A DNA stretch of 46,528 bases, from assembly GCA_015062395.1 (NCBI GenBank), contig SUUS01000009.1:1-46528 (forward strand), written 5' to 3'. Position 1 is the first letter of the stretch; every line of letters begins with the position of its first letter. The position numbers and the translations under genes are program-made. The stretch is from Alphaproteobacteria bacterium (GTDB lineage Bacteria > Pseudomonadota > Alphaproteobacteria > CAAHEQ01 > UBA3637). Of this stretch, positions 1 through 46,528 are shown one piece after another. A model generated the notes under the pieces. That model was given only the letters and a program-made list of their open reading frames with translations. It ran no database searches and was not told where the DNA came from.

Positions 1-1088
1 CATCCTCGTCAAGTAGTTCATCAAGTTCTTCCTCGAGCAGTAGCTCTTCGAGTAGTTCGAGTAGCAGCTCCTCTTCAAGTTCTTCGTCAAGTTCGAGTAG
101 TAGTAGTTCTTCAAGTAGTAGTTCTTCTTCTAGCAGTAGTAGTAGCTCGAGTAGTAGTAGCTCTTCTTCTAGCAGTAGTAGTAGCTCTTCAAGTTCTTCG
201 AGTAGTTCTTCAAGCTCAAGCAGTAGTAGCTCCTCTTCAAGTTCTTCGTCAAGCAGTAGCTCTTCTTCGTCGAGTTCAAGCTCTTCGAGCTCTTCAAGTA
301 GCTCAAGTTCATCGTCTTCGTCGAGTTCAAGCTCTTCAAGCTCGAGTAGCTCTGGTGGTGGTAGCTCCAGCTCATCCTCTGGTGGGGGATGCGCGCAAAC
401 AGAGTGTGAATATGATATTGAAAATTGTATAACATCAACGTTTAATATGGAAACTTGTTTGTGTGAATGTGATATATGTCGAGGATCTTTGTATGTACCA
501 AGTGAAGATCGTACTGAATGTGAATGTCTGCCCGTAGCAAATTGTACAGAATACATGAATGGACATCCTACAGACAATGATGATTGGGAAAACTCTTCAG
601 AAAATCCAAATGAAGATGGGGCAGGATATTGTTCTTGTCAAGGATGTAAAGGTGGCTATGAGCTGGTAAAAGGAGGCGAACAGAATGTTTGCTGTAAAAA
701 AATAGATAACTGTTCAGAATATAACACTGATTGTGGTTGTACCAAATGTGTGGATGGGTATGAACCAGAAAACGGTGGTGAATCCTGCGTTGAAAAAGAT
801 GTATGTTATATGCCTGATGGGACAAAAGGAAAGTTAGAAGATGAATGTTGCATCGCATCTACATCTAGTTGTGAGTGTGATGAATCTTCTGCATTTGTAC
901 TTGAATGTGACGATATCTACCCAAATTGTGAAATTAAAACAATGAGTTCTGTGGGCTGGTGTCCAGGAGATGATTTTATTTGTTGTACAAAAAATTCTTG
1001 GCGAGTTTTTGATAACAGTTATGGAGAACGTGAAGAAGGGGATGTTTTCTCTTGTGGTAGTTGTTGGGCCGTTTCTGAAAATGATTGA
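1..1088 (+). CDS. Poly-serine stalk, cysteine-rich surface protein (5' partial)
   Basis: The reading frame is open from the left edge of the window, so the protein starts outside it; the first in-frame ATG (447) is internal. Positions 3-353 encode 117 consecutive serines, then three Gly, six Ser, three Gly (354-389), then about 230 residues with roughly 32 cysteines to the stop at 1086-1088. The Cys-rich part repeats a CxCxxC pattern (CSCQGCKGGY near 631-660, CGCTKCVDGY near 733-762), reminiscent of EGF/furin-like disulfide modules. All six serine codons are mixed, so the tract is held at protein level rather than being a simple DNA repeat. The likely role is an extracellular adhesin or stalk protein whose flexible Ser linker carries a disulfide-rich head. 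The function is inferred; no named family was recognised. The C-terminus (ending SCWAVSEND) has no visible membrane segment or LPXTG-like anchor. Confidence 0.8.
   Translation, partial: SSSSSSSSSSSSSSSSSSSSSSSSSSSSSSSSSSSSSSSSSSSSSSSSSSSSSSSSSSSSSSSSSSSSSSSSSSSSSSSSSSSSSSSSSSSSSSSSSSSSSSSSSSSSSSSSSSSSSGGGSSSSSSGGGCAQTECEYDIENCITSTFNMETCLCECDICRGSLYVPSEDRTECECLPVANCTEYMNGHPTDNDDWENSSENPNEDGAGYCSCQGCKGGYELVKGGEQNVCCKKIDNCSEYNTDCGCTKCVDGYEPENGGESCVEKDVCYMPDGTKGKLEDECCIASTSSCECDESSAFVLECDDIYPNCEIKTMSSVGWCPGDDFICCTKNSWRVFDNSYGEREEGDVFSCGSCWAVSEND
3..380 (+). repeat. Poly-serine coding tract
   Basis: 117 uninterrupted Ser codons (3-353), a Gly3 spacer and six more Ser codons. TCN and AGY codons alternate irregularly, which gives a degenerate low-complexity DNA repeat prone to misassembly and length change. 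Confidence 0.9.
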
Positions 1089-46110: not shown

Positions 46111-46148
46111 TTTATCATTCTGAAGGGCGCTAGCCCGAAGAATCTCTT
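46111..46148. repeat. Imperfect palindrome with GGGC-GCTA-GCCC core
   Basis: Within the prfC-pilin gap, a GGGC/GCCC core flanked by TTCT and AGAA forms an imperfect palindrome. It is more GC-rich than its surroundings and looks like a dispersed intergenic repeat, but only one copy is in this window. Confidence 0.3.
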
Positions 46149-46208: not shown

Positions 46209-46239
46209 TTGACAGGGGGGGGAGGGGGTATGTTATAAC
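46209..46239 (+). promoter_or_regulatory. G-tract promoter of the pilin-like gene (possible phase-variable)
   Basis: TTGACA (46209-46214) and TATAAC (46234-46239) with a 19-nt spacer; reading TTATAA as the -10 gives 18. The spacer starts with eight G (46215-46222), A, then five G (46224-46228). It is the only promoter placed in this window with a homopolymeric GC spacer and with spacing far from 17 nt. Confidence 0.65.
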
Positions 46240-46240
46240 A

Positions 46241-46279
46241 ATAGCGTTGTACGACGATTTAAACGTCGTATAACGCTAT
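46241..46279 (+). other. 16-bp inverted repeat in the pilin leader
   Basis: Left arm ATAGCGTTGTACGACG (46241-46256) pairs with CGTCGTATAACGCTAT (46264-46279) through a 7-nt loop, with one G-U pair. Five T (46281-46285) follow one base later. An outer pair, GGGGGTAT (46224-46231) and ATACCCCC (46293-46300), surrounds it. It could be an mRNA stem-loop, an attenuator or a protein-binding site at the transcript start. Confidence 0.65.
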
Positions 46280-46323
46280 GTTTTTATGTGGGATACCCCC
46301 CTTTTTTTTGGAAGGTTTGAAAA

Positions 46324-46528
46324 ATGCAACAAAATCGTGATAAAAAAGCTTTGAAACAACACATTCAATCTGGTCGTTCGATGATTGAAATGATTGGTGT
46401 GTTGGCTGTGATTGGTGTTTTGTCTTTAGGTGGATTGCTGGCTTATAGTATTGCCATGACTTATTACAGAGCCAATCAAACTATTCACGATGTCATGTTG
46501 CGTGGGTCCAATGTTCCCATGATGTGGG
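46324..46528 (+). CDS. Type IV pilin-like (pseudopilin) protein, 3' partial
   Basis: The first 68 codons are in the window. A 17-residue basic leader ends at Gly17; then RSMIEMIGVLAVIGVLS begins the hydrophobic helix with Glu at +5 of the predicted prepilin peptidase cut, the hallmark of type IV pilins. Arg at +1 is unusual (Phe or Met is common). RBS GGAAGG lies upstream of the ATG. The N-terminus alone cannot tell a major pilin from a minor or secretion pseudopilin. The gene has an elaborate leader: a G-tract promoter and a large hairpin. Confidence 0.75.
   Translation, partial: MQQNRDKKALKQHIQSGRSMIEMIGVLAVIGVLSLGGLLAYSIAMTYYRANQTIHDVMLRGSNVPMMW

Follow-up and report, generated by a model that had tools for sequence, protein, structure and literature searches.

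The G tract between the -35 and -10 elements of a promoter near the right end of contig SUUS01000009.1 (the window, 46,528 nucleotides, the whole stretch of DNA analysed) is very likely a slipped-strand phase-variation switch of a type IVb-pilin-like gene, one of at least 14 of its kind in the genome and accompanied by a sister set of genes switched in translation. In this alphaproteobacterium, which has a 1.36-Mb genome, an entire family of surface pilins is probably subject to random on-off switching.

In the proposed mechanism, replication slippage (slipped-strand mispairing) would lengthen or shorten the G run that separates -35 from -10. Strong transcription would be expected at spacer lengths around 17 nt, and weak transcription or none at 13 or 19-24 nt. 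The 14 genes of the sister set (class II) would keep a constant 17-nt promoter and be switched in translation by slippage in a poly-C tract in codons 9-13. Recombination between copies would put either type of 5' cassette onto different pilin bodies, and the choice of pilin-like proteins would thus be random in each cell. Their processing would probably fall to the prepilin peptidase of the genome and their handling to its type IVb pilus machine.

The promoter and gene in the window

A sequence-only reading had described a TTGACA and a TATAAC separated by a 19-nt spacer containing G8-A-G5, and this promoter was confirmed letter for letter, including its coordinates (Table 1). The spacer reads G8-A-G5-TATGT in full, and the -10 hexamer is preceded by a TGn extended -10 (TG-T-TATAAC), absent from that reading. 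A homopolymer is therefore found between the -35 and -10 elements of a recognisable promoter, the arrangement of promoter-spacer phase variation of the porA type. The G8 is the sole G run of seven or more in the window (46.5 kb, 33.5% GC); shuffled sequence is expected to hold 0.16 G8 runs, so that by itself it is mildly unusual. A run of six or more Gs set between TTGACA and TATAA, on the other hand, appeared in none of 100 shuffles, which, together with the 14 copies in the genome, led to the rejection of a chance promoter-like match.

We agree with the earlier proposal that the loss of two Gs would give the window gene a 17-nt spacer. However, the tract is interrupted, which lowers slippage, and it should slip less than the uninterrupted G18 and G19 copies found elsewhere in the genome. 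Since an A interrupts it and its G8 falls short of the 9-11 G of porA tracts observed to switch, the window copy is probably a slow switch, weakly expressed at present, and the long uninterrupted tracts would be better candidates for fast switching. The extended -10 could also lessen the sensitivity of the promoter to spacer length.

Table 1. Features of the window, and tract states of both cassette classes across its genome
Feature	Position	Strand	Details
3' portion of a gene for a similarly built protein (poly-Ser and Cys-rich)	3..1088	+	left contig end
Dispersed palindromic repeat (TCATTCTGAAGGGCGCTAGCCCGAAGAATC)	46114..46144	+	
-35 hexamer TTGACA	46209..46214	+	sequence read directly
G tract G8-A-G5 in promoter spacer, proposed slippage site	46215..46228	+	G8 46215-46222, A 46223, G5 46224-46228, then TATGT 46229-46233
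Extended -10 (TGT) and -10 hexamer TATAAC (46234-46239)	46230..46239	+	same in 5/5 readable class I copies
Inverted repeat in leader; RNA hairpin with 16-pair stem, then GTTTTT	46241..46279	+	
C6-T8 stretch, precedes Shine-Dalgarno-like GGAAGG	46296..46309	+	C5-C7/T7-T9 among copies
Pilin-like gene, 5' part (MQQNRDKKALKQHIQSGRSMIEMIGVLAVIGV...)	46324..46528	+	start 46324, open to contig end, 68 codons visible
Class I C6 (window)			G8-A-G5, spacer 19 nt
Class I C8			G19, spacer 24 nt
Class I C23			G9, spacer 13 nt
Class I C31			G9TGAGG, spacer 19 nt
Class I C34			G18, spacer 23 nt
Class II C12			C5TC5, interrupted; in frame (ON), 237 codons
Class II C33			C5TGC7, interrupted; in frame (ON), 317 codons
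Class II C29			C6TC6; in frame, but meets TAG
Class II C38 (C13), C11 (C12), C2 (C6)			out of frame (OFF), stop after 14-27 codons

The reading frame behind this promoter is open to its last base because the window ends at the contig end. Its N-terminus, G-RSMIEMIGVLAVIGV, scores 17.0 bits against the NCBIfam prepilin N-terminal profile TIGR02532 (cut-off 16.3) and stays below the cut-off of Pfam N_methyl (14.9 against 21.2). It holds a prepilin peptidase site and a hydrophobic N-terminal segment with Glu at +5. Contig C40 starts with exactly the last 93 bp of the window, the sole exact overlap among 30 contig ends compared, and the window gene probably continues into it, a join that would give an ORF of 459 codons whose product has a Cys-rich region and a poly-Ser run. 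The protein encoded at the left end of the window is also of the pilin-like family, and the window is thus bounded on both sides by family members. Long poly-Ser stretches occur in family proteins (the left-end gene and locus L014), in DNA with tandem repeat units of 15-39 bp.

The leader is predicted to fold strongly (-32.1 kcal/mol for 46240-46330, z -5.6), and its hairpin does not differ between the five readable class I copies; it may act as an mRNA stabiliser, an attenuator, or an operator or regulator-binding element. No viral contig carried the leader palindrome, so that this route yielded no second isolate of the species, and a relaxed form of the promoter pattern matched one viral contig. 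Further upstream, the palindromic repeat TCATTCTGAAGGGCGCTAGCCCGAAGAATC precedes many genes of both classes and is present elsewhere in the genome. It is a possible recombination substrate, and the switch does not require it.

Two classes of 5' cassette and a pilus machinery in the same genome

The block around GACTTGACAGGG is present in at least 14 copies in the genome (class I), on contigs C5, C6, C8, C10, C21, C22, C23, C25, C28, C31 (twice), C34, C36 and C38. Thirteen of the 14 carry TTGACA, and the copy at the left end of C31 has TTGACG. Five can be read through to the -10 (C6, C8, C23, C31 and C34). The leaders of the three compared are 96-99% identical, while the spacers of these five range from 13 to 24 nt; with flanks this similar, the spacers differ because the G tract differs. 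All these differences are between paralogues, and exact lengths may be wrong, since short-read assembly is unreliable in poly-G and poly-C. As assembled, none of the five has a 17-nt spacer. Eight further copies stop at a contig end within the G tract, and a ninth incomplete one (C38) has G9 and stops inside the -10. An extra copy of the promoter (G000:C13:2141-2183, minus strand) reads TTGACAAGGGGGGGG and continues into unrelated sequence where the leader would be expected; either the locus is rearranged or the assembly is wrong at the G tract.

The class II genes carry another 5' cassette, with TTGACT and TAGAAT or TAAAAT separated by 17 nt in 13 of the 14 copies. Their ORFs start with ATGTCCATTAATTTATTCAAATTTA-C(n)-GAATTTTC, i.e., MSINLFKFTPPPP, where the poly-C tract lies in codons 9-13. 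As in translational phase variation, the ORF carries a homopolymer close to its start, with both ON and OFF frames found (Table 1). With the tract of class I in the promoter and that of class II in the ORF, the former is positioned for switching at transcription and the latter at translation. Seven contig ends lie within class II poly-C, and 15 fall in the tracts of either class. Across the genome, 31 G/C runs of eight or more are seen against about 1.4 expected from base composition, and the two cassettes contain 20 of these 31 and 11 of the 12 runs of ten or more.

The two classes share their pilin bodies. The body of the class I genes C8 or C31 shares 99% identity with the class II C38 body and 80-83% with the body of class I C6, which is in turn 96% identical to class II C12. 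Leader identity between classes is 48-63%. Bodies common to both classes behind class-specific leaders indicate that cassettes and bodies have been recombined.

These results bear on the sequence-only reading in two ways. Its interpretation as phase variation gains strong support from the at least 14 near-identical promoter copies, in which the G tract is the only large length difference, from the parallel class with coding-start poly-C in ON and OFF frames, and from the same designs in other genera (see below). Its single isolated switch has to be rejected, as the window promoter is one member of a large, multi-copy, two-mode system.

The genome also encodes a type IVb pilus set. A cluster on contig C22 includes TcpQ, a PilN-type secretin, PilO, a T2SSE ATPase, and a T2SSF inner-membrane protein, and a prepilin peptidase (Peptidase_A24) is found on contig C1. 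The Secretin, PAP_PilO and TcpQ profiles score above their cut-offs, and PilN, with 275 bits, falls just below its equivalog cut-off of 288. Because of this set and the peptidase, the pilin-like proteins could be processed and then assembled or displayed by the machinery of their own genome, as judged from gene content. Full-length family proteins compared with Pfam matched no pilin family above cut-off, DUF7107 in L105 being the only match. A single-sequence AlphaFold model of a relative from another genus (G010) was poor (pLDDT 46) and confident in the N-terminal helix only.

Occurrence in other genomes

A strict promoter pattern run over 385 genomes across Alphaproteobacteria matched only the genome of the window, and reversed-pattern controls gave zero or nearly so. 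Within the family, sampled through 43 genomes (all those sampled for the order), the poly-G promoter design occurs in two other genera, one of which (G006) also has the poly-C design. In G010, about 14 poly-G promoters were found, mostly with unlike flanks and most with a TATGN-type -10; many of them precede pilin-like N-termini, and several have spacers of 16-20 nt. G006, from a third genus, has ten poly-G promoter copies, mostly TTGACAGT-G(11-13). Among 20 further G10+ tracts sampled in this genome, nine are of the promoter type and eight of the 5'-ORF poly-C type, the latter with short M...TPPPP leaders and with both ON and OFF frames, and most of the tracts lie before pilin-like N-termini. 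Overlapping G10 words number 265 in G006 and 279 in G010. The genome G001, of the same genus as the window, has neither the promoter block nor a G10 run, and the system is therefore patchy within the lineage.

Several loci in these relatives depart from the common design. Poly-G promoters precede ORFs without a prepilin signature in G010:C28 (L226) and G008:C55 (L228), so in relatives the switch extends beyond pilin-like genes. In G010, the frames of two related pilin-like genes with a poly-G promoter (L109 and L224) seem to shift shortly downstream of the prepilin segment. At G010:C15:1305-1319 (minus strand, L108), TTGACA-G13 is joined straight to a pilin-like frame (GRTLLETLSVLAL) without -10 or leader, which reflects either a genuine fusion or a join made by the assembler in the poly-G.

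Beyond the Alphaproteobacteria, a scan of genome contigs (L179-L208) found TTGACA-G8..16-TATGNTATAAT before lipoprotein or other surface-type ORFs in unrelated bacteria, among them the isolate Anaerocaecibacter muris CLA-AA-M11 (three loci) and MAGs of Clostridia and Tenericutes. In a Bacilli MAG (L186), this promoter precedes a type IV pilin-like ORF. Such matches suggest that poly-G spacer switches have been used repeatedly and independently across bacteria.

Alternative readings and biological meaning

The observed differences in tract length may also be compatible with old, fixed differences between paralogues. The block would then be a dispersed repeat copied along with pilin genes, its tracts differing by old drift or assembly error with no ongoing switching. 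The variation is indeed seen solely between paralogues, the assembly breaks inside the tracts, and interrupted tracts exist (the window and the G9TGAGG of C31). However, the G run spans 8-19 while its flanks remain nearly identical; in G010 the flanks are mostly unlike, yet poly-G sits exactly between TTGACA and -10; and drift does not predict the placement of poly-C in the sister genes, inside the reading frame and with both ON and OFF alleles. We therefore consider this explanation unlikely.

Two further proposals leave the tract in place and move the control elsewhere. The G tract could tune the promoter as a site of protein binding or as a DNA-structure element (e.g., a G-quadruplex or A-form DNA), its changes in length being incidental. 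Poly-G always lies immediately 3' of the -35, and in Treponema pallidum CRP works together with poly-G at tpr promoters (PMC7864442). Such a role is nevertheless very improbable given the wide length differences among otherwise near-identical promoters and the poly-C of the sister class, placed in a coding start where the frame alone matters. Alternatively, the leader hairpin could exert the main control as an attenuator or operator, the promoter being constitutive through its extended -10. The strong, conserved hairpin with its GTTTTT and the TGn before TATAAC would fit this, but a hairpin identical in the five readable copies cannot explain the differences between copies, and the recurrence of poly-G at the same place in genera with other leaders would be left unexplained, which makes this proposal highly doubtful.

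Phase variation through the tracts, the preferred reading, has relatives among described systems. Switching by promoter poly-G is best known from a few pathogens. In porA of Neisseria meningitidis, which encodes a surface protein, poly-G likewise occupies the promoter spacer and its length sets expression, which is high with 11G, about 2-fold lower with 10G and about 13-fold lower with 9G (PMC3639595). Contrary to this single porin gene, here at least 14 copies drive pilin-like genes, alongside a matching set placed for translational switching. T. pallidum has several surface-protein genes, some of them paralogous, with poly-G in or beside the promoter (tp0126, tprE/G/J and tprL, tp0126 performing best at 17-nt spacing); the available part of the source describes neither a shared promoter block with exchanged bodies nor a sister set with poly-C in the ORF (PMC7864442). 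Phylum and protein family also differ from those studied here. The vlp-type families of Mycoplasma are multigene families of surface lipoproteins with a homopolymer, poly-A, in each promoter. The present family resembles them in being multigene, surface-type and equipped with one homopolymer per promoter, and differs in its pilin-like proteins, its poly-G and its additional ORF switching. The gut bacterium Bifidobacterium breve is reported to turn pilus expression ON and OFF through replication slippage (PMC9187656), although in a Gram-positive with sortase-dependent pili, a different pilus type and scale. A search of the open-licence literature for phase-variable pilins in uncultured Alphaproteobacteria found nothing relevant. 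The mechanism itself is known from porA and the treponemal promoters, and the present case differs from them in the protein family, the copy number, the translational set, and the shared bodies.

It is an even call whether the system amounts to a two-mode modular switch, in which interchangeable poly-G and poly-C 5' cassettes, recombined onto shared bodies at no fewer than 28 loci in each small genome and at more in relatives, give combinatorial pilus variation for escape from phage, immunity or attachment limits. The design extends across an entire multigene family of pilin-like proteins in a lineage of uncultured Alphaproteobacteria whose genomes are small, where it is paired with a translational switch, and short-read genomes hide it because their contigs break exactly in these tracts. 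If the tracts vary within populations, the system would offer a test case for the share of a small genome that is given to random surface variation, and for why graded transcriptional and ON/OFF translational switches coexist.
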